Assembly (NCBI GenBank): GCA_025353485.1
Contig: JANXQO010000139.1
Span: 1 to 52,518 of the forward strand
Length of the DNA: 52,518 bases
Source of the DNA: Chitinophagales bacterium
GTDB taxonomy: Bacteria > Bacteroidota > Bacteroidia > Chitinophagales > Chitinophagaceae
Direction: 5' to 3'
Part shown: positions 1,632 to 51,191 of the stretch, piece after piece
Position numbering within the stretch: the stretch's first letter is position 1
Layout: each line of letters opens with the position of its first letter
Translations under genes and position numbers: made by a program
Notes under the pieces: generated by a model
What the model saw: only the letters and a program-made list of their open reading frames with translations
Told to the model about the DNA's origin: nothing
Databases searched by the model: none

Positions 1632-1662
1632 AAAAGCCTCCCTTAGGGAGGTTGGAGGGTTT
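1632..1662 (-). repeat. Palindromic repeat family A, copy 2 (reverse)
   Basis: The core CCTCCCT-T-AGGGAGG (1637-1651) is followed by the outer arm TTGGAGGGTTT, the reverse complement of the AAACCCTCC arm seen elsewhere. It lies immediately upstream of the infB start at 1669, so it probably forms part of the infB leader. Confidence 0.8.
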
Positions 1663-1668
1663 CCTAAT

Positions 1669-4473
1669 ATGTCAGAAGCAAATACACCACGGTTAATGGC
1701 GGCAGCAAAGGAATTTAATATAGGTACAAGTACCTTAATGGAATTTCTTGCCTTAAAAGGTTTTAATGGTGATGACCTTAAACCAACTTCCAAAATTACG
1801 GAAGATATGTACCGTGTTTTGCAAACTGAATTCCAGCAGGACAAAGCTGCTAAACAAAAAGCAGAACAGATTGATCTCCCTAAAAATGCGGTTGCCGAAT
1901 CAAAACGTAAAAGGGATGAAGAAGATCTTTCAATAAAGAAAAAAGAAGCCGCTAAGATCAGGGAAACACCACCGCCTGCTGCAGAAGAAATAAAAGCGGA
2001 AATAAAGGAAACTCCTCTTCCTGAACCACCACCAACTCCCGAAATAACAAAAATTGAAGCTCCGGAAATTGAACAACCTAAGGTTATTGATAAGATAGAT
2101 CTAAGTACAATTGATTCATCTACCAAACCAAAAAAGAAAGAAAAAACAGTAAAGAAAGAGGACATCGAAGAAAAACCTAAAGCGCCTGCTGCAAAAACAG
2201 TAAAGAAAAAAGAAGAAGAAGCGCCTGAGAAAACAGAACCAATTCCTGTGGCAATAATTCCTGAACCCCAAAAAGAGGAAGCACCGGTTATTGAAAATAT
2301 AAAAGCTGATAAATTAGAAGGCCCTAAGATCATGGGTAAAATTAAACTACCCGTGCATAATGAAACAAGACCGATGGATGAGAAACGCATACGCAAACGC
2401 ATCCCGGTTGATCAGAAAAAAGTAGGCAACGCCCCTTCTAATTTTCAGCGTGGGCCAGGTCCCGGCCAGGGACAAAGAACTCCAAGCCCGTACCAGGGCA
2501 ATCGTCCTCAAGGTGGCGGTGGTGGCAGGTTTAGCAGAAATGCACCTGTAGTTGCCCGCCGTGATGATAAAGAAATTGATCAAAAAGAAATACAGGATAA
2601 AATACGGGAAACCCAAGCCAAACTTGCAGGTTCAGGCGGACGTGGTAAGAGCTTAAAAGCAAAATATCGTAAAGCAAAAAGAGACGAAGCTGCAGAATTA
2701 CAAAGCGGTGAAGCAACAGTTGATAATAAATTACAGCTAACCGAATTTATTTCAGTAAGTGAATTTGCAAACCTGATGGATGTAAGTTTTGCTGATGTTA
2801 TAAGCAAATGTATGAGCCTCGGAATTATGGTTTCTATCAACCAGCGTTTAGAAGCGGATGTAATTGAATTGGTGGCCGGCGAATTTGGATATGAAGTTGA
2901 ATTTATCGGTATTGATGACGAAGCAGACTTGGAAGAAGAGATTGCAGATACAGATGAAGAACTTGTTTCCCGTCCTCCCATCGTAACCATTATGGGTCAC
3001 GTAGATCATGGTAAAACATCTTTACTTGATTATATACGCCATGCCAATGTTATCGCAGGTGAAGCCGGCGGCATCACACAGCATATTGGTGCGTACGAAG
3101 TGATGTTAAAAGATGGACGGGCAATCACATTTTTAGATACGCCGGGCCACGAAGCATTTACTGCAATGCGTGCCCGCGGTGCCAAGGTTACTGATATTGC
3201 AGTAATTGTTATTGCTGCCGATGATGCGGTAATGCCTCAAACAAAAGAAGCAATTTCACATGCGCAGGCAGCAAATGTTCCTATGATATTTGCTTTGAAT
3301 AAAATTGATAAAGACGGCGCTAATCCTGAAAAAATCAAAGAGCAATTATCCGGAATGAATCTTCTTGTAGAAAGCTGGGGAGGTAAATACCAAAGCCAGG
3401 AAATTAGCGCAAAAAACGGATTAAATGTGGATGAACTTCTTGATAAAATATTATTGGAAGCAGAACTGCTGGAGCTGAAAGCCAACCCTGATAAGAATGC
3501 CAGCGGAACAGTAATTGAAGCATCACTTGATAAAGGACGTGGATATGTAGCAACCATTCTTGTACAAAACGGAACGTTGAAACAAGGTGATCTTTTGGTA
3601 TCAGGTCAAAATTACGGAAGAGTAAAAGCAATGTTTAATGAACGTAACCAACGAACTGAGGTGGCTCCTCCTGCAACACCTGTATTAATTTTAGGATTGA
3701 ATGGCGCTCCCCAGGCCGGTGAAACTTTTAAAGTGTATGAAGATGAAAGCGAGGCAAAAGAAACTGCAAACAGAAGAGCGCAAATCCTGCGTGAGCAAGG
3801 TATAAGAGCTAAAAAACATATTACTTTAGATGAGATTGGGCGCAGACTTGCATTGGGTAATTTTAAACAACTTAATCTTCTTATCCGTGCTGATGTTGAT
3901 GGTTCGGTAGAAGCATTAAGTGATTCATTACAAAAATTAACTACAGAAGAAATTGCAGTAAGCGTAGTGCATAAAGGCGTAGGGCAAATTACAGAAAGTG
4001 ATGTATTGCTGGCTACTGCTTCGGATGCTGTCATTATTGGCTTTAATGTTCGGCCTGCATTATCTGCTTCAAAACTTGCAGAAAATGAAGGGGTAGAGAT
4101 AAAAACATATTCTATTATTTACGATGCCATTGATGAGGTTAAGAGTGCCATGGAAGGTATGCTTGAACCTAAAATTCAGGAAAAGGTTTTGGGTGTTGCA
4201 GAGATAAAAGAAACGTACAAATTTGATAAAGCTACGGTAGCAGGTTGTATGGTACTTGATGGTAAAGTTGCCCGTAACAACAGGATACGTTTGGTAAGAG
4301 AAGGTATCATTGTACACACCGGCGAATTAGGAAGCCTGAAAAGATTTAAAGATGACGCCAAAGAAGTAACCACCAATATGGAGTGTGGTATGATAATAAA
4401 AAACTACAACGATATAAAACCCGGCGATATGATAGAAGCCTTTGAAGAAGTAGAGGTGAAGAGAACATTGTAG
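1669..4473 (+). CDS. infB: Translation initiation factor IF-2
   Basis: This 934-residue GTPase delivers initiator fMet-tRNA to the 30S subunit. An IF2_N-like segment lies at the start, then a long charged, proline- and lysine-rich linker (about 60-320) that includes a Gly/Arg-rich stretch near 265-290. A second IF2_N domain follows at about 350-410, then the G domain. The P-loop GHVDHGKT (about 443-450), DTPGHE (about 490) and NKID (about 544) are all present, followed by the beta-barrel and C-terminal fMet-tRNA-binding domains. The length is typical of Bacteroidota IF2. It is probably cotranscribed with nusA, with the repeat-bearing leader between them. Confidence 0.97.
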
Positions 4474-6061: not shown

Positions 6062-6095
6062 TAAGTTTCCCCTTTCGGGGACAGAGGGCCTTTTC
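6062..6095 (-). repeat. Palindromic repeat family A, copy 4 (reverse)
   Basis: TCCCC-TTTC-GGGGA (6068-6081) is followed by the reversed outer arm CAGAGGGCCTTTT. It is paired with copy 3 across a spacer of about 50 bases. Confidence 0.7.
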
Positions 6096-9733: not shown

Positions 9734-10654
9734 TTAAGCTTTCGAAAGTCCTCTCTTTAGGGAGGATTTAGGAGGGGTTTTATTGGCAAGATAAACCCCG
9801 CTGAATATAATTATACCGGCGATAATTTTATAAAAATCCAGGCTTTCTTTCAAAAAAATTGTTGATATTATTACAGCAAAAACCGGTTGCGAATAAATAT
9901 ATGTGCCGGCAGTAGAGGCACTCAATTTTTTAATTCCGTATGCATTAAAAATGTATGCTAAGAAAGTGCCGGGAACAACGATCATAAACAATAAAAAGTA
10001 TTCATCAAGTTTATAAAGGCTCCATGGGATTTGTACAAACTCTTTCCATCCTAATGGCAATATCATAATAAATCCAAAAGTAAACACCCATCTCATAACA
10101 TCCATTGTGGAATATTTTTGCATTAATGGTTTAACCAGTATAAAATAAATAGTGTAAAGAACAGTACTCATTATTACCAAAAGATCTCCCAATAAAATAT
10201 CATTTCTTTTGGTTGCATTATGGCCCGACATTATTAGTATACAGGCTCCGGTAACACCAAGAAATAATCCAATAAGTTTTAGCGGTGTAATGGTTTCTTT
10301 TAAAACCCATGCAGCAATAAATGTGATAAGGATAGGCGTGATGAGCAATAGTAATGATGCATGAATAGGATAAGTTAGGGACACACCTTTCATAAAAAGC
10401 ATCTGGTTGGCGGCCAGCGCAGAGAATGCGCAAAGCAGAAACCTTACAATATCTTTCTTCCCAATTTTTTTCTTCTCACTGGTTATAAAAAACAGTAACC
10501 AGAATAGTATTACACAAACTCCACTGCGAACTACATTAAGCCCATAAGGTCCTGCCAGGCTCTGCCCGGTAAAATATTTAATAGCGCTAATATTTATTGC
10601 AAAGAAAAGATTGGTTGCCAATAAGCCAATGTGTGCCTTGATCTGTGGGCTCAA
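9734..10654 (-). CDS. EamA-family drug/metabolite transporter
   Basis: The 306-residue membrane protein has about ten transmembrane helices in two EamA repeats (about 5-140 and 155-290), including the characteristic LLLLITPILITFIAAWVLKE at the end of the first repeat and YIYSQPVFAVIISTIFLKE in the second. Such proteins export amino acids or other metabolites; the substrate cannot be read from sequence. The final residues (TPPKSSLKRGLSKA) are encoded by a palindromic repeat rather than by a normal transporter end. The next gene on this strand, the glycosyltransferase, ends about 30 bases upstream. Confidence 0.88.
   Translation of the reverse strand: MSPQIKAHIGLLATNLFFAINISAIKYFTGQSLAGPYGLNVVRSGVCVILFWLLFFITSEKKKIGKKDIVRFLLCAFSALAANQMLFMKGVSLTYPIHASLLLLITPILITFIAAWVLKETITPLKLIGLFLGVTGACILIMSGHNATKRNDILLGDLLVIMSTVLYTIYFILVKPLMQKYSTMDVMRWVFTFGFIMILPLGWKEFVQIPWSLYKLDEYFLLFMIVVPGTFLAYIFNAYGIKKLSASTAGTYIYSQPVFAVIISTIFLKESLDFYKIIAGIIIFSGVYLANKTPPKSSLKRGLSKA
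9739..9783 (-). repeat. Palindromic repeat family A, copy 5 (reverse)
   Basis: TCCTCTCTTTAGGGAGGA (9749-9766) is followed by the reversed outer arm TTTAGGAGGGGTTTT. The copy overlaps the 3' end of the EamA gene and supplies its last codons. Confidence 0.8.
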
Positions 10655-28787: not shown

Positions 28788-30326
28788 ATGAATAAAAAAA
28801 TTAAATCTGCACTTATCTCTGTTTTTTATAAAGATGGATTGCAAAATATTGTAGCGCTTTTACATTCACTTGATATTAAAATTTATTCTACAGGTGGCAC
28901 GCAAAAATTTATTGAGGATTTAGGCGTATCATGTATTGCTGTAGAATCTCTCACGTCCTATCCCTCTATTTTAGGCGGCCGGGTTAAAACCCTTCATCCA
29001 TCAGTATTTGGCGGTATTCTCGGGAGAAGGGATAATGAAAAAGATCTTGAAGAAATGATGCAGTTTAATATCCCTGAAATTGATCTTGTTATTGTTGATC
29101 TGTACCCTTTTGAAGAAACCGTTCTTTCAACAAATGATGAGGCGGCTATCATAGAAAAAATAGATGTTGGAGGACCTTCAATGATAAGAGCGGCAGCAAA
29201 AAATTTTAAAGATGTATTAGTTGTAGCAGCAAAAAAAGATTATCGGGAGATTGAAAATATTCTTAAAAAGCAAAATGGTGAAACAACTTTAGAGCAAAGA
29301 AAAACCTTTGCTATAAAAGCATTTGATGTTTGTACTAATTATGACATTGCTATCTCAAACTATTTTAATAAAACAAATTTTTTCAACCCTTTCTCAAGAG
29401 CAAAAAAAATATTGCGTTATGGAGAAAACCCTCATCAGCAGGCAATTTTTTATGGGGATATCAATAGAATTTTTGATCAGTTGCATGGGAAAGAACTTTC
29501 TTACAATAACCTTGTTGATGTTGATGCAGCAATTCAATTAATGAATGAGTTTTCTTCTCCCCCTCTCCCAATGGAGAGGGGGACGGGGGGTGAGGTTTTT
29601 GCTATCATTAAACATACAAACGTGTGTGGTATAGCACAAAGACAAACGCTGAAACAAGCATGGGATGGGGCTTTACAGGGTGATCCGGAAAGTGCCTTTG
29701 GCGGTGTATTAATTACCAATACAGAAATAGATAAAGAAACCGCTTTCGCGATCAATGAATTATTTTTTGAAGTTTTAATTGCTCCTTCTTTTAATGATGA
29801 AGCATTACAAATACTCAAAGGAAAAAAGAACCGGATTCTCCTGAAGCATACACAAAATATTTCTTCAACACATCAATTCAAATCTGTTTTAAACGGTATG
29901 CTTACCCAGCAAAATGATGAAGGAAATTTTACTGAATGGAAAGAATCAGGCGGAAGAGAATCAACACAAAACGAAAAAGAAGATTTAAAATTTGCCAACA
30001 TCATCTGTAAGCATTTAAAAAGTAATGCTATTGCTCTTGTAAAAAATAAACAGCTTATTGGTAAAGGTTGCGGGCAAACTTCACGAATAGATTCTCTGCG
30101 GCAGGCCATCGAAAAATCTAAACAATTTAATTTTGATTTAAAAGGCTCTGTGCTCGCAAGCGACGCATTTTTTCCTTTTGATGATTGTATAAAAATTTCT
30201 CATGCTGCCGGCATTACTGCATTTATACAACCAGGCGGATCTATACGTGATAAGGATTCTATTGAATATTGCAAACAAAATAATCTTGCTATGGTTATAA
30301 CAGGCATGCGTCATTTTAAACATTAA
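28788..30326 (+). CDS. purH: Bifunctional AICAR formyltransferase/IMP cyclohydrolase, with an in-frame palindromic insertion
   Basis: The 512-residue enzyme performs the last two steps of IMP synthesis. The N-terminal IMP cyclohydrolase/MGS-like domain (about 1-190) has STGGTQKFIEDLG and GGRVKTLHPSVFGGIL. The AICAR transformylase domain has RYGENPHQQA, SYNNLVDVDAA and the catalytic KHTNVCG (normally KHTNPCG). Between NEF and VFAIIKHTN there are about 14 residues (SSPPLPMERGTGGE) encoded by a palindromic repeat. The frame is kept, so the protein is probably functional. The final half contains GSVLASDAFFPFDD. It lies between comEC and an EamA gene with very short gaps. Confidence 0.95.
   Translation: MNKKIKSALISVFYKDGLQNIVALLHSLDIKIYSTGGTQKFIEDLGVSCIAVESLTSYPSILGGRVKTLHPSVFGGILGRRDNEKDLEEMMQFNIPEIDLVIVDLYPFEETVLSTNDEAAIIEKIDVGGPSMIRAAAKNFKDVLVVAAKKDYREIENILKKQNGETTLEQRKTFAIKAFDVCTNYDIAISNYFNKTNFFNPFSRAKKILRYGENPHQQAIFYGDINRIFDQLHGKELSYNNLVDVDAAIQLMNEFSSPPLPMERGTGGEVFAIIKHTNVCGIAQRQTLKQAWDGALQGDPESAFGGVLITNTEIDKETAFAINELFFEVLIAPSFNDEALQILKGKKNRILLKHTQNISSTHQFKSVLNGMLTQQNDEGNFTEWKESGGRESTQNEKEDLKFANIICKHLKSNAIALVKNKQLIGKGCGQTSRIDSLRQAIEKSKQFNFDLKGSVLASDAFFPFDDCIKISHAAGITAFIQPGGSIRDKDSIEYCKQNNLAMVITGMRHFKH
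29551..29600 (-). repeat. Palindromic repeat family A (CT-rich variant), copy 6, inside purH
   Basis: CCCCCTCTCC (29559-29568) and GGAGAGGGGG (29573-29582) form a perfect 10-bp stem around CAAT, followed by ACGGGGGGTGAGG. It is read through in frame as part of PurH. Confidence 0.8.
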
Positions 30327-30330
30327 CAGC

Positions 30331-31374
30331 ATGCAAAAATATTTCACTCAAAAATATTATGCTGATAAAAGACAAAGCACTTCCACAAAAAATAAAGCGT
30401 TGTTTGCACTCGTATGGGTGAGTATTGCATGGGGAACTACGTGGCTTGCATCAAAAGAAGCAGTAACAAATATGCCTGCTTTACAGATGATAGCCATAAG
30501 GCAATTAATTGGAGGTATATTATACATAAGTTATTTTATTTTAAAAAAACAGCCATGGCCTAAGGGAAAACAATGGATAGCTATTTTAGTGCTGAGTTTT
30601 TTAACTTTTATGCTAAGCAATGCCTTAAGCACATGGGGGATAAAATTTATTCCAAGCGGGCTGGGCGCTATTATGGGAGCTATTTTTCCATTATGGTTAG
30701 TCATCATTACAATGTTTAAGGGCAAGCGTTTACCGCGGCAAACATTAGCAGGATTATTAATGGGCTTTGGCGGTATATGTATAATTTTTTACGAACACCT
30801 TAAAGATTTTATAAATCCTGATTTCATGTTTGGAATTTTATTATCATTAGCGGCAACAATTTCCTGGGCATTCGGCACACTGTATACCAAGCAGGAGGCT
30901 ATAAATTTTAATCCCTATTTCAGCTTAGGATTTCAAATGCTTATTTCCGGAATAATAATTTTGTTTATCGCAGAAACTACGGGTAATACCGTAAAGTTTT
31001 CTGATATCCCTGCATCCTCCTGGTGGGCTATAAGCTATCTTGTTGTTATTGGTTCTGTGCTAACTTTTGTGGCTTACATTTATTCACTGCAAAATTTACC
31101 AACGGCACTGGCTTCTATTTATGCATACATAAATCCTATTGTGGCAGTCCTTTTAGGCGCTATGCTGCTTAATGAAAAGCTTACCATATTTATCGGAATT
31201 GGTGGCGCAATTACTATCGCAGGAGTATATCTTGTAAACAACAGTCTTAAGAAAAAAATGATTAGCCCCCTGCCCCCCCGAAGGGGGAACTTAGACCGCA
31301 AGTGGTTTTACTATTTTATTATTGTTTTAGATTTGAATGAACGTGCTTCCCTTCCCGAAGGGAAGGTGCTTTAG
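30331..31374 (+). CDS. EamA-family transporter with repeat-encoded C-terminal tail
   Basis: The 347-residue membrane protein has about ten helices in two EamA repeats, starting with VWVSIAWGTTWLASKEAV and including SGLGAIMGAIFPLWLVIITMF and ASIYAYINPIVAVLLGAMLL. After NNSLKKKM the transporter fold is complete; the last 38 or so residues (ISPLPPRRGNLDRK onwards) are encoded by an inverted pair of family A repeats. It follows purH by four bases. The substrate is unknown. Confidence 0.87.
   Translation: MQKYFTQKYYADKRQSTSTKNKALFALVWVSIAWGTTWLASKEAVTNMPALQMIAIRQLIGGILYISYFILKKQPWPKGKQWIAILVLSFLTFMLSNALSTWGIKFIPSGLGAIMGAIFPLWLVIITMFKGKRLPRQTLAGLLMGFGGICIIFYEHLKDFINPDFMFGILLSLAATISWAFGTLYTKQEAINFNPYFSLGFQMLISGIIILFIAETTGNTVKFSDIPASSWWAISYLVVIGSVLTFVAYIYSLQNLPTALASIYAYINPIVAVLLGAMLLNEKLTIFIGIGGAITIAGVYLVNNSLKKKMISPLPPRRGNLDRKWFYYFIIVLDLNERASLPEGKVL
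31262..31293 (+). repeat. Palindromic repeat family A, copy 7 (forward)
   Basis: The arm TTAGCCCCCTG is followed by CCCCC-GAA-GGGGG (31275-31287) and AACTTAG. It lies in the EamA reading frame and is paired with copy 8. Confidence 0.75.
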
Positions 31375-37754: not shown

Positions 37755-37776
37755 TAGTGTCTCAGTTTGAATTTTA

Positions 37777-37935
37777 ATGCTTGACCGGAATAAGCAAATC
37801 CTTAAGAGTGCCGCCAGCAATGCAGCAGGGTTGATAAAAAGATTATTGAGCATTGAAGATATTGCGAACTTAGTAGTTGATGAAGTACCGAATAAAAGAG
37901 GCTCTTATAAAAAGAAAACCGATATTGATAAATGA
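37777..37935 (+). CDS. Small ORF 1 of the 510-bp element (52 residues)
   Basis: The product starts MLDRNKQILKSAASNAAG and has a helical core LIKRLLSIEDIANLVVDEVP and a basic tail (KRGSYKKKTDIDK). I do not recognise it. The start codon lies directly after the left terminal repeat and the stop overlaps the start of ORF 2 by four bases (ATGA), so translation is likely coupled. The pair layout recalls toxin-antitoxin genes but sequence does not prove that. Confidence 0.5.
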   Translation: MLDRNKQILKSAASNAAGLIKRLLSIEDIANLVVDEVPNKRGSYKKKTDIDK

Positions 37936-38246
37936 GTAAAAAAATAAGAATCAAATGGATAGGGTTAGCTAAAGTTGTTGTATTAAACAACAGTAATATT
38001 TTGAATGGAGATAAAGCAGCTTTCACTAATGCTTTAGGGTTAGCAAAAACTAAAACGGAGTTTAGAAACAAAGTTAAAAACAAGTTTTACTCTATGGATT
38101 TAAAGTTGCTCCGCTTAGAAGAAGTAGAATCTTTTGCAGATCGTCTAAAAAATCATAATGTAAGCAAGGATATTATTAAAGTATCAAAACGGTTATCGGA
38201 AATCAACGAAGTTGAGTTTTCAATATTTCATACTTTCCCTGAATAA
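37932..38246 (+). CDS. Small ORF 2 of the 510-bp element (104 residues)
   Basis: The product is basic at the N-terminus (MSKKIRIKWIGLAKVVVLNN) and charged and helical afterwards (SMDLKLLRLEEVESFADRLK). It ends in EVEFSIFHTFPE. I recognise no domain. The stop codon TAA (38244-38246) already belongs to the right terminal repeat. It is the only gene of reasonable size in the element, so it is either cargo or a highly reduced mobility protein. Confidence 0.6.
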   Translation: MSKKIRIKWIGLAKVVVLNNSNILNGDKAAFTNALGLAKTKTEFRNKVKNKFYSMDLKLLRLEEVESFADRLKNHNVSKDIIKVSKRLSEINEVEFSIFHTFPE

Positions 38247-38299
38247 ATTCAAACTGAGACACTATCTGTAATTCGTAAAAATCGTGTCTTAAAATAATG

Positions 38300-46448: not shown

Positions 46449-46487
46449 TTTACCCTCTAAATCTCCCTAAAGGGAGACTTTCGAAGT
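46449..46487 (+). repeat. Palindromic repeat family A, copy 9 (forward)
   Basis: ACCCTCTAAA, then TCTCCCT-AA-AGGGAGA (46462-46477), then CTTTCGAAG. It lies between the subunit-3 gene and the MocA gene. The outer arm is almost identical to that of copy 11 beside the DUF559 gene. Confidence 0.85.
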
Positions 46488-47988: not shown

Positions 47989-48133
47989 ACATTCATTTTT
48001 TTTAATTCACTTACTGTTGTTGAACTTTCCAAAAGTTAGTAACGAACTTTTTATTTATAAACTATCTAACAAAACTTTTGGAAAGTTTGTTTGAAAGTTA
48101 TTATTAAACATTCATTTTTTTCAATTCACTTAC
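47989..48133. repeat. 26-bp direct repeat around a hairpin element behind the GMC gene
   Basis: The stretch 48108-48133, which covers the end of the GMC gene, recurs at 47989-48014 with one mismatch. Between the copies, AACTTTCCAAAAGTT (48023-48037) and its exact inverse (48073-48087) form a 15-bp inverted repeat. The hairpin may serve as GMC terminator. Confidence 0.7.
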
Positions 48134-49780
48134 GGCATAATCAACAGCCCGGGCAGTAAGCGCCATATAAGTAAGTGATGGATTAACACAATTTGCTGAC
48201 GTCATGCATGCGCCATCGGTTACAAAAACATTTTGTGCATCCCATACCTGGTTCCATTTATTTAATACAGATGTTTTTGGATCTGCTCCCATACGTGCAG
48301 TACCCATTTCATGAATGCCTTGTCCCAAACCATATTCTCCATTATAGCTTTTAACATTTTTTATCCCTGCTATTTCAAGCATTTCTTTTGCATCATTGGC
48401 CATATCCTCACGCATCTTTTTTTCATTCTCCTTTATCTCAGCATCTATGGCAAGTATGGGCAAGCCCCATTTATCTTTTTTGTTTTTATCTAATGTAACC
48501 TGGTTTTCATGATAAGGAAGTATCTCACCAAAACCCCCAAAACCTATACTCCATGGCCCTGGCTCTGATAAAGCATCTTTGAAATCGCCGCCAATATTCA
48601 TTTCTGCAATATCACGGCTCCATCCGGATCTGCTGGCCCCACCCTGGTAGCCAAAGCCACGCAGGTATTCACGTTTATCACCAAAAAGATTTCTGAACTG
48701 AGGTATATAAGGACCATTGGGACGACGGCCAAAATAATATTTATCTTCATATCCTTCAACTGTGCCACCTGCCCCCACACGTAAATGGTGATCCATAAGA
48801 TTATGACCTAATTCTCCGCTGCTGCTGCCTAAGCCACCGGGCCAAACATCAGTAGCCGAGTTCATTAATACCCATGTTGAATTTAATGTGGAAGCATTTA
48901 AAAATATTATTTTAGCAAAGTAATCATATGTCTGATTTGTTTGTGCATCAAGAACCCTTACTCCTTTTGCTTTTTTGGTGTCTTTATCATAAAGTATTTG
49001 TGTAACAATAGACCATGGACGAAGGGTTAATTTACCCGTAGCCATTGCTGCAGGAAGCGTAGAGGACTGTGTGCTAAAATACCCGCCAAACGGGCAACCG
49101 AGCCAACATTTATTTCTGTATTGGCAATTGGTTCTGGCTTGTAAAGGAGCAGTAAGATTCGCACTTCTTCCCATAATTATTCTTTTGCTTTTGTAATGCG
49201 CATTTACCCGTGCAACCACATCCTTCTCTACACAATTAAATTCCATAGCAGGTAAAAATTCGCCATCCGGCAATTGAGATAATCCTTCTTTTGATCCATT
49301 AATGCCTGCAAATTTTTCTACGTAACTGTACCAGGGAGCAATGTCTTTATACCGGATAGGCCAATCTACAGCAATACCATCTTTTGCATTCGCATCAAAA
49401 CTATGGTCACTCCATCGGTAAGATTGCCTGCCCCATGTTAGTGAGCGGCCTCCAACCTGATAGCCTCTGTACCAGTCAAATCTTTTAACCTCTGTGTAAG
49501 GGCTTTCCTTTTCATTCACCCAAAAATCAAGATTAGTTTCATTTAACGGATAGTCTCTTTTTAAGTTTGGATAATCTTTTACCATTTGCTGTGTGCGGCC
49601 GCCACGGTGAGGAAACTCCCACGAACCCTTAGTGGCATTTACATAATCTTTTACATGCTCAATGTTTCTGCCTCTCTCAAGCATTATTGTTTTGAGGCCT
49701 TTTTCAGTAAGCTCTTTTGCAGCCCAACCTCCTGAAATTCCTGAGCCTATTACAATTGCATCATAAGTATTTTCTGCCAT
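48104..49780 (-). CDS. GMC-family FAD-dependent sugar dehydrogenase, large subunit
   Basis: The 558-residue protein has the FAD-binding motif VIGSGISGGWAAKEL (Gly12, Gly14, Gly17), MLERGRN, and the C-terminal GMC_oxred_C domain with the catalytic His490 in GIHEMGTARMG and Asn533 in CVNPSLTYMAL. A Cys-rich stretch CWLGCPFGG is present. It has no signal peptide; export would depend on the Tat-bearing subunit 3 gene nearby. Homologous complexes oxidise sugars, for example glycosides at C3, and pass electrons to cytochromes. The exact substrate is unknown. Confidence 0.9.
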   Translation of the reverse strand: MAENTYDAIVIGSGISGGWAAKELTEKGLKTIMLERGRNIEHVKDYVNATKGSWEFPHRGGRTQQMVKDYPNLKRDYPLNETNLDFWVNEKESPYTEVKRFDWYRGYQVGGRSLTWGRQSYRWSDHSFDANAKDGIAVDWPIRYKDIAPWYSYVEKFAGINGSKEGLSQLPDGEFLPAMEFNCVEKDVVARVNAHYKSKRIIMGRSANLTAPLQARTNCQYRNKCWLGCPFGGYFSTQSSTLPAAMATGKLTLRPWSIVTQILYDKDTKKAKGVRVLDAQTNQTYDYFAKIIFLNASTLNSTWVLMNSATDVWPGGLGSSSGELGHNLMDHHLRVGAGGTVEGYEDKYYFGRRPNGPYIPQFRNLFGDKREYLRGFGYQGGASRSGWSRDIAEMNIGGDFKDALSEPGPWSIGFGGFGEILPYHENQVTLDKNKKDKWGLPILAIDAEIKENEKKMREDMANDAKEMLEIAGIKNVKSYNGEYGLGQGIHEMGTARMGADPKTSVLNKWNQVWDAQNVFVTDGACMTSANCVNPSLTYMALTARAVDYAVSELKKMNV

Positions 49781-49787
49781 AAAAAAA

Positions 49788-49826
49788 ACCCTCCTAAATC
49801 CTCCCTAAAGGGAGGACTTTGCTTTT
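49788..49826 (+). repeat. Palindromic repeat family A, copy 10 (forward)
   Basis: AACCCTCCTAAA, then TCCTCCCT-AA-AGGGAGGA (49799-49816), then CTTTGC. The stem is perfect over 8 bp. It lies directly upstream of the GMC start and downstream of the DUF559 stop. Confidence 0.85.
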
Positions 49827-50235
49827 AGTTAATAATCTGTTTATGTAATTCTGTTTCAACAATAGAATTTATTTCAGCTAAAATAAATTCCAATTGATTG
49901 TACACTTGTGTATTGCTAAATCTTATAATTTTATAACCTAATCCAATAAAGTATTTTTCTCTTTCTTCATCGTATATTTTTATTTCCTTCAGATCATGAA
50001 TGCTGCCATCCACTTCTATAATAAGTTTTAATTTATGACAGAAAAAATCTGCAACATAAAGTCCAATGGGATGTTGTCGTCTGAATTTTATATTCTGTAT
50101 TCCTGATTTTAAATGCACCCACAAAATTTTTTCTGTATCTGTCATTTCCTTTCTTAGTTGTTTGGCAAATCCAAAAACTAAATGATTTGCCCCTTCAAAC
50201 ATTCCTCTATTTTTATATAGTGATTTTTCGTTCAT
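49825..50235 (-). CDS. DUF559-domain protein (Vsr-like nuclease fold)
   Basis: The 136-residue protein carries the full DUF559 core: FRRQHPIGLYVADFFCHKLK then LIIEVDGSIHD, with Asp63, Glu74, Asp76 and His80 in the positions expected of a PD-(D/E)XK/Vsr-like nuclease, then YDEEREKYFIGLGYKIIRF. All putative catalytic residues are intact. Function is not established; relatives are annotated as endonuclease-domain proteins. It is flanked on both sides by inverted family A repeats and is unrelated in function to the sugar genes around it. Confidence 0.88.
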   Translation of the reverse strand: MNEKSLYKNRGMFEGANHLVFGFAKQLRKEMTDTEKILWVHLKSGIQNIKFRRQHPIGLYVADFFCHKLKLIIEVDGSIHDLKEIKIYDEEREKYFIGLGYKIIRFSNTQVYNQLEFILAEINSIVETELHKQIIN

Positions 50236-50261
50236 ATTGTTTATATACTCTCTTAAATTAC

Positions 50262-50305
50262 AATCTTCCCAAGTCTTCCTTTAGGGAGATTTAGAGGGTT
50301 TTTTT
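50262..50305 (-). repeat. Palindromic repeat family A, copy 11 (reverse)
   Basis: AAG, then TCTTCCT-TT-AGGGAGA (50274-50289, one mismatch), then TTTAGAGGGTTTTTT. Its outer arm reaches the TIM-barrel gene's stop codon. A further partial stem TCTTCCC precedes it. Confidence 0.8.
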
Positions 50306-51191
50306 ATACATCACAAATTTTTATTGCTTCTTTAAGCGAGTCTAATTTATCTTTCATTGTCGGAACAAATTCCTGTGCTACATAACCTTTATAACCTGTT
50401 TCAACAATTGCTTTCATTACTGCAGGGTAATACAGTTCCTGTGTATCATTAATTTCATGCCTGCCGGGAATGCCTCCCGTATGATAATGCGCAATGTATT
50501 GATGATAATCTCTGATGTTCCTTATAATATCTCCTTCCTGTATTTGCATGTGGTAAATATCAAACAGCAATTTAAAATTTTCTGAGCTAATGCGTTTACA
50601 TAATTCTGCTCCCCATTCTACATGGTTACACATATAATCTTTATGATCAATCTTGCTGTTTAAAAGCTCCATCACCATTGTAACACCATTCTTCTCTGCT
50701 AATGGTAAAATCTTTTTCAACGCATCCATACAATTTTTCATTCCTGTTTCATCATCCATTCCTTCACGCTTACCGCTAAAGCAAATAAGATTTTTGTATC
50801 CTGCTTTTGCCATTATCGGGATCGTTTCCAAATATTCTTTTATGAGGTTTTCATGATAGACCGGGTTATTCAATCCATTATTTAAATTATTATCGCCGGC
50901 AGTATAACACATAGAGCTGTAAATGCCGTGGTGCTGCAGCGTAGGCCAATCTTTGGGCTTCACCAGATCAATAGCATTAAATCCTATTTCTTTTACTGCT
51001 TTACACAATTCATCTAATGAAAGATATCCAAACGTCCATCTTGAAACTGAATGGTTGATATTGCCTTTTAATTTAGTTTTATTTTCAATTTTATTTTGTG
51101 ATGCAAAAGAAACCACAGGTGCAGCAATAACTGCAGATGCAGCAAATACCATATTTTTTAAAACATTTCTTCGTGAGGTTTGAACAGGCAT
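50304..51191 (-). CDS. Hydroxypyruvate-isomerase-like TIM-barrel protein, Tat-exported
   Basis: The 295-residue protein has a Tat signal (TSRRNVLKNMVFAASAVIAA) followed by an AP_endonuc_2 TIM barrel: AVKEIGFNAIDLVKPKDWP, VTMVMELLNSKID, LLFDIYHMQIQEGD, HYHTGGIPGRHEI and a final VAQEFVPT. The pattern matches the hydroxypyruvate isomerase/sugar epimerase group, with metal ligands Glu, Asp, His and Glu present. Export implies action on periplasmic sugars. The MFS permease gene lies 18 bases upstream on the same strand. Confidence 0.87.
   Translation of the reverse strand: MPVQTSRRNVLKNMVFAASAVIAAPVVSFASQNKIENKTKLKGNINHSVSRWTFGYLSLDELCKAVKEIGFNAIDLVKPKDWPTLQHHGIYSSMCYTAGDNNLNNGLNNPVYHENLIKEYLETIPIMAKAGYKNLICFSGKREGMDDETGMKNCMDALKKILPLAEKNGVTMVMELLNSKIDHKDYMCNHVEWGAELCKRISSENFKLLFDIYHMQIQEGDIIRNIRDYHQYIAHYHTGGIPGRHEINDTQELYYPAVMKAIVETGYKGYVAQEFVPTMKDKLDSLKEAIKICDV

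Follow-up and report, generated by a model that had tools for sequence, protein, structure and literature searches.

Bacterial genomes commonly contain short palindromic repeats, and to our knowledge many palindromic repeat families have no known mover. The closest described systems are the REPtrons of the REP/REPIN-RAYT type, in which, according to the excerpted accounts (PMC3116915, PMC3733652), a gene is bounded by palindromes of its own type while solo and paired gene-less copies occur elsewhere. The CGTC class of palindromes, in the same excerpts of PMC3733652, seems to be without a dedicated transposase. Rickettsia palindromic elements and intragenic REPs are palindromes that lie inside conserved genes and are translated; the excerpted sections of PMC3733652 report them without a nuclease gene of the kind considered below. 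On the protein side, I-Bth0305I is a homing endonuclease of the EDxHD group (a name taken from PMC3943268), and in Caulobacter a DUF559 protein with a functional link to a methyltransferase is proposed in the excerpt of PMC12907096 to be a mismatch-repair nuclease. Our search of the open-licence PMC literature listed no paper linking DUF559 with palindromes.

The locus described here lies in a 52,518-nucleotide stretch of a Chitinophagaceae genome, hereafter called the window. A palindrome-bounded DUF559 unit of 523 bp (49781..50303, minus strand) fills the spacer between two genes, with the stop codon of a TIM-barrel protein gene (50304-51191, minus) directly before its 5′ end and the ATG start codon of a GMC oxidoreductase gene (48104-49780, minus) directly after its 3′ end. 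It carries a Vsr/EDxHD-type nuclease gene of the DUF559 family (PF04480; 49825..50235, minus; 136 aa). As the original prediction held, the unit interrupts a collinear minus-strand cluster, which reads MFS transporter, TIM-barrel gene, DUF559 gene and GMC oxidoreductase. At each end, the outer part is a tail (CCCTCTAAAT or the variant CCCTCCTAAAT) and the inner part a short hairpin; the two ends are mutually inverted. The 5′-end palindrome (50271..50303, minus) has the CCCTCTAAAT tail and a hairpin with one mismatched, decayed arm. The 3′-end palindrome (49781..49818, minus) is inverted relative to it and consists of the hairpin TCCTCCC-TTTA-GGGAGGA and a tail. The oppositely oriented palindromes with matching outer arms that had been predicted were recovered, 31 nt being matched without gaps at 71% identity with a perfect 12-nt outer match. 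Relative to shuffled sequences, the 3′ (downstream) palindrome folds well (z -2.59), and the 5′ (upstream) one, whose arm is broken, folds no better than expected (z 0.75). In a scan of 345 window positions for inverted pairs, the DUF559 site ranked top, with a score of 23.5 against a mean of 9.65. The same scan gave a score of 20 to a second inverted pair (TAGTGTCTCAGTTTGAATTT..., 37770-38275), which is not of the DUF559 palindrome type and encloses a 104-aa ORF (37932-38246, plus) without a Pfam or PHROG match.

The arrangement resembles a REPtron in that the DUF559 gene sits between palindromes of its own types, with solo and gene-less paired copies elsewhere, and in that an inverted palindrome pair is matched to the flanked gene, as found for 55 of 87 DUF559 copies. 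It differs in the gene itself, which has the PF04480 Vsr/EDxHD fold rather than that of an HUH/Y1 tyrosine transposase (PF01797), and in the tails, which are of the CCCTCTAAAT or CCTCACCCC types rather than GTAG. Unlike REPtrons, DUF559 units also occur several per genome, many of them in frame with host genes. We compared the Y1 (RAYT) transposases of the same bacterial family at 27 of 30 loci, three short loci being left out. Pair scores above 13 were found in 11 of these 27, with other palindromes, several of them GTAG. The REP-RAYT analogy of the original prediction thus stands for the anatomy but not for the palindromes, which differ beside RAYTs of the same family, and a RAYT as mover of the DUF559 palindromes was set aside as unsupported on that ground. 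The RAYT-like Y1 genes at L329, L332, L335, L337, L341 and L347, with their other palindrome pairs, several GTAG, form a parallel system.

The window protein matches PF04480 with an E value of 3.2e-32, and Pfam shows no second domain within its 136 residues. The four residues by which the gene had been judged intact, Asp63, Glu74, Asp76 and His80, are invariant in 44 aligned sequences, and Asp89 is also among the invariant residues; around DFVCLEKK, the procedure by which the loci were collected exaggerates conservation. Profile matches in the PDB were 3hrl (E 7e-33) and the homing nuclease I-Bth0305I (3r3p; E 8.6e-6). A predicted model of the protein (mean pLDDT 85.1) matched the same two structures in Foldseek (9.4e-8 and 9.3e-4, respectively), with weak matches to PvuRts1I (E 0.02) and Vsr (1vsr; E 0.07). 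The fold search also ranked two Toxoplasma mitoribosome chains (E 5e-4 and 9e-4). With I-Bth0305I, the DUF559 protein shares a related catalytic domain, by profile and by fold, and presence inside conserved genes; unlike in homing of that type, the DUF559 units have palindromic ends, occupy many unrelated sites and leave the host frame uninterrupted.

The nuclease is conserved among the copies. The median dN/dS was 0.106 and the maximum 0.43 over the 161 of 217 similar pairs with unsaturated dS (the rest being saturated, and the pairs not independent). A lenient active-site pattern is retained in 172 of 174 copies, and five of the 174 have an internal stop. The DUF559 protein is clearly kept functional by purifying selection in most lineages. 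A role in defence was considered and rejected, its sole support being a weak PADLOC match to mREase_II (E 3.9e-6), which the shared fold would give.

The protein could be a resident repair enzyme of the Vsr kind whose palindromes are ordinary terminators or chance neighbors. It resembles the Vsr/VsrA mismatch-repair nucleases, as presented in the excerpt of PMC12907096, in fold and active site, and both the weak fold match to Vsr and the methyltransferase link of the Caulobacter protein favor such a role. The frequency of paired palindromes around the gene bears on this reading. We aligned the upstream 300 bp to the reverse-complemented downstream 300 bp for 87 distinct full-length copies in the family (89 distinct matches, from which the partial L055 and the weak L009 were dropped), using as controls 159 positions chosen at random in the family's other loci. 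Fifty-five of the 87 copies scored above the maximum of the controls (0/159), and the same score was reached by 5 of 113 other small ORFs (6 of 114 before removal of the window's own DUF559 gene, contained in L069). Flanking by paired palindromes beyond controls, the check proposed with the original prediction, was therefore found, and on these controls together with the window scan a chance landing of palindromes beside a small gene was rejected. Among the 32 copies that fail the test, some still show palindromes by eye and others, such as L123, L136, L137 and L139, show no clear pair. The test was also passed by 62 of 80 loci of named organisms (flanks of 320 bp against 300 bp in the control), which are the best 80 of 162 matches to one query rather than a random sample and span Bacteroidetes, Ignavibacteria, Desulfobacteraceae, Alphaproteobacteria and others. 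Palindrome pairs that far exceed the controls, copies in frame inside unrelated enzymes and a patchy presence among relatives make a resident repair enzyme very improbable; unlike Vsr/VsrA, DUF559 is here palindrome-bounded and multi-copy.

PF04480 was matched at E 0.001 in 48 of 98 genomes of the family, 41 with a long match by our own count, and at E 1e-15 DUF559 was matched in 162 of the 395 genomes searched across the phylum, which named relatives indicate to be Bacteroidota. Matches were also present in 45 plasmid and five phage records, at under 60% identity. Similarity between proteins goes with similarity between their palindromes (Mantel r 0.38 over the 55 copies with clear pairs, reached by 0 of 5000 permutations), a correlation that shared descent alone could produce. 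The palindrome pattern and full-length DUF559 co-occur among genomes (21/25 versus 20/73, Fisher 9e-7, in tables tallied by hand), and they still do so in a recount after two genomes matching only beside a DUF559 copy were moved (19/23 versus 22/75, Fisher 8e-6). The pattern occurs without any DUF559 match in G039 (28 matches), G045 (14) and G047 (1); G078 has four pattern matches and a weak DUF559 match only.

The genome from which the window derives has eight full-length PF04480 copies and one weak, partial match. By eye, paired palindromes of about four types surround all eight, and seven of them have a pair score above 13. Matching-end scores averaged 24.1 within a copy versus 11.9 between copies. 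The window copy shares its palindrome type with L148 and, more weakly, with L008; the CCTCACCCC type is common to L004, L006 and L150, and L154 and L152 are each separate from these groups. Of the eight, one is found within each of icmF, aroC and leuS, two form in-frame fusions with the starts of trpA and argB, and the other three are stand-alone genes. The leuS gene of this genome is apparently split at the inserted unit over two contig ends (C58 and C137), probably by an assembly break at the repeat. The weak match, L009, lies inside a 1338-aa open frame, with no palindromes visible in the stretches of its flanks that were inspected.

Palindromes without the gene are present in the window as well. 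The original prediction had counted at least nine further copies; we found six with a tail and a hairpin, of at least three sequence types, by a pattern-based count in which more decayed copies could be missed. One, at 46453..46480 (plus), is intergenic and of the same type as the ends of the unit. Another, of the CCTCACCCC type (29555..29597, minus), lies in frame inside purH (28788-30326), in its AICARFT part. Two lie at the C-terminal ends of EamA transporter ORFs (31266..31292, plus, in ORF 30331-31374; and 9748..9778, minus, in ORF 9734-10654, minus). The remaining two are found just upstream of ORF 1669-4473 (1634..1661, minus) and in an intergenic position (6063..6089, minus). In the same purH stretch of 17 congener loci, G103 has a related but different palindrome and G098 another type; no palindrome is visible in the other 15, for example G113. 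Further in-frame solo palindromes occur in a dihydroorotase gene (L182) and at a second LeuS site of the source genome. The unit and the short palindromes dispersed in these genomes would be versions of one element: the unit has the gene, and solo palindromes and gene-less inverted pairs would be its non-autonomous or decayed forms. In G039, pairs of inverted palindromes separated by about 220-340 bp (L164, L165, L166) resemble REPINs or MITEs. In G045, palindromes about 350-460 bp apart (L175, L176, L177) have the same orientation and lie within longer similar blocks.

Many DUF559 copies, in the genomes of both the family and the phylum, sit in long open frames, by which 20 genomes were selected for retrieval. 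Script-assigned labels place 46 of the 87 family copies in one frame with a host gene and 41 on their own; the pair score is passed by 30 of the former and 25 of the latter. A same-strand gene lies upstream of 45 of the 54 stand-alone copies examined. The hosts include leuS, metH, aroC, icmF and metG. Pfam, the source of host names for in-frame copies as for window neighbors and ORFs with solo palindromes, shows the host domain split in two around DUF559 in chorismate synthase (L004, L013), homocysteine S-methyltransferase (L015, L028), the MetH activation domain (L020) and MetG (L026). It also places LeuS, IcmF, HsdR, Lhr helicase, CinA and M23 peptidase in one frame with DUF559. The dihydroorotase (L182), DUF58 (L112) and thrB (L118) assignments and the tRNA-synthetase site numbers were read from the sequence by eye. 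The open frame runs uninterrupted from host to nuclease to host, which makes an intron unnecessary. AlphaFold modelled AroC together with its insert at low confidence (mean pLDDT 42.8), and the model was set aside. In their in-frame, translated location the insertions resemble the Rickettsia palindromic elements and intragenic REPs, from which, as excerpted, they differ by the presence of the nuclease gene.

In-frame copies could be domesticated parts of their host enzymes, a reading with which purifying selection and, in some groups such as MetH site 2 and RecG, recurrence at one site would agree. The hosts have no common function, however, and many host orthologues are empty. The protein phylogeny also bears on this point. 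In a FastTree of DUF559 with 174 of 177 sequences (score above 85), the host-site label changes 21 times over the 107 rows whose label is shared by two or more (12 labels; minimum 11). These host-gene labels, like the MetH site 2 and RecG groups, rest on short sequence motifs of our own choice. Ten changes are between host and stand-alone positions, so that copies on the same tree also stand alone between genes. Domestication can hardly be credited as the explanation.

Comparison with relatives shows sites without the unit. At the TIM-barrel/GMC junction, the unit was present in none of the 39 other loci compared (29 + 10). The two genes are adjacent in seven congeners, in whose spacers no hairpin palindrome was seen by eye; the G106 and G111 junctions, counted as lacking the unit, have a tail-like CCTCACCC stretch and no hairpin. 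L083 carries a gene-less palindrome pair at this junction, and a decayed pair may be present in L082. Because the congener spacers differ from each other, the precise sequence of the empty window junction could not be fixed. A comparison of orthologous junctions of this kind had been proposed with the original prediction.

A clearer case was found in metH, which was matched in 273 of 299 genomes of a genus taken, from named relatives and from the 100% match of G289 to the L239 query, to be Flavobacterium. At site 1, L276 has a unit where nine relatives (L277-L285; 95-98% upstream protein identity) are empty, and since these close relatives lack it, the unit appears from the sequences to have been gained in L276. 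It replaces about 11 codons of a variable MetH stretch while keeping the frame (YIEASKDGKSSSAGK becomes YV, unit, AGK), and no target duplication is seen between L276 and the empty relatives. In other species, the unit in this stretch belongs to a second DUF559 subfamily and differs in its left junction. Other genomes use a second MetH insertion site; L309 and L319 hold units at both sites, and in L315 the gene has been deleted at site 2 with both palindromes retained.

Copies within one genome can be nearly identical. In G064, the L112 and L118 units are identical over approximately 450 bp except for one substitution and one single-base gap. On the right, identity stops at the outer edge of the palindrome, beyond which the flanks are unrelated (read as a DUF58 gene and thrB); on the left, it begins inside the unit, and the palindromes at the outer left edge show a diverged relationship. 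The pattern suggests recent copying or gene conversion between units, conversion fitting as well as a new insertion. By eye, an ATG just before the right end reads through the palindrome in frame into both downstream genes.

Direct target duplications were sought in 26 units with recognised ends. There was no excess at lengths 1, 3 and 5-8; at length 2 the frequency was 0.15 versus 0.06 (reached by 18 of 500 shuffles), and at length 4 a single unit matched (105 of 500 shuffles). Beyond the ends of the same units, the first outward base matched its counterpart in inverse orientation at 0.96 versus 0.42 in shuffles, and the second at 0.54 versus 0.26; this was not built on because many of the 26 are related LeuS insertions. 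The units thus differ from DDE-type insertion sequences, having no direct target-site duplication and showing replacement at the MetH site instead. With duplication absent and host codons replaced, break repair is a better fit than strand transfer by a transposase.

The main doubt concerns direction, that is, whether the palindromes are the ends of the unit or the target into which the nuclease homes. In the latter case another enzyme would move the palindromes, and DUF559 would be a hitch-hiking homing nuclease that cuts them and is copied into them, the pairs marking its target. The relatedness of the protein to a homing nuclease agrees with this, as does the existence of palindrome-rich genomes without DUF559; these genomes (G039, G045) could have lost the gene or could owe their palindromes to an independent mover. 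LeuS site 2 carries a solo palindrome in the source genome and full units in others, and different palindrome types and DUF559 subfamilies occupy the same purH and MetH stretches. However, the obvious movers, RAYTs, adjoin other palindromes in the same family (11 of 27 above 13). Moreover, the pair is inverted and matched for each copy, whereas insertion into one palindrome would be expected to leave two halves or a direct repeat. Hitch-hiking is unlikely, though it is the rival to be taken most seriously.

We favor as the probable explanation that the unit is a small mobile element, in which inverted palindromes, each a tail and a hairpin, form the ends around a DUF559 nuclease gene, and that it is spread by the nuclease. 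That the unit is mobile is well supported: it has a defined structure, its palindrome pair goes with the gene, it occupies many unrelated sites of which some are empty in close relatives, it has gene-less derivatives, and its conserved nuclease is kept by selection. As for the cause of the spread, the Vsr/EDxHD-type nuclease would recognise or cut DNA, be it the palindrome of the unit or a target, and repair of the resulting break might copy the unit in the manner of homing. Such repair would explain why target duplications are absent and why a few host codons are lost at the site. Palindromes and gene would form one open frame, and inserts in variable stretches of conserved proteins would be tolerated unspliced; the element could survive inside essential genes because insertion keeps the frame open. 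The original observation is thus partly confirmed and largely right, the pattern being wider than first seen, and its interpretation is supported, with the spread of palindromes by DUF559 still an inferred step. Tentatively, these units may belong to a class of mobile elements in which a Vsr/EDxHD-type nuclease, rather than a transposase, moves palindrome-bounded units by break repair, with element and ends in one frame as an unspliced domain of essential enzymes in several phyla; we hold this wider proposal with less confidence than the mobility of the unit itself.

These observations suggest a little-known kind of selfish DNA. Each single trait has precedent, and the units would constitute a new class if the nuclease proves to be the mover. 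They show how selfish DNA can reside in essential genes without interrupting the frame, and they carry a warning for annotation, as about half of the DUF559 copies in the family (46/87 by script labels) appear in frame with larger enzymes. One large group of palindromes is hereby tied to a widespread protein family of unknown function, which gives that function a testable direction.
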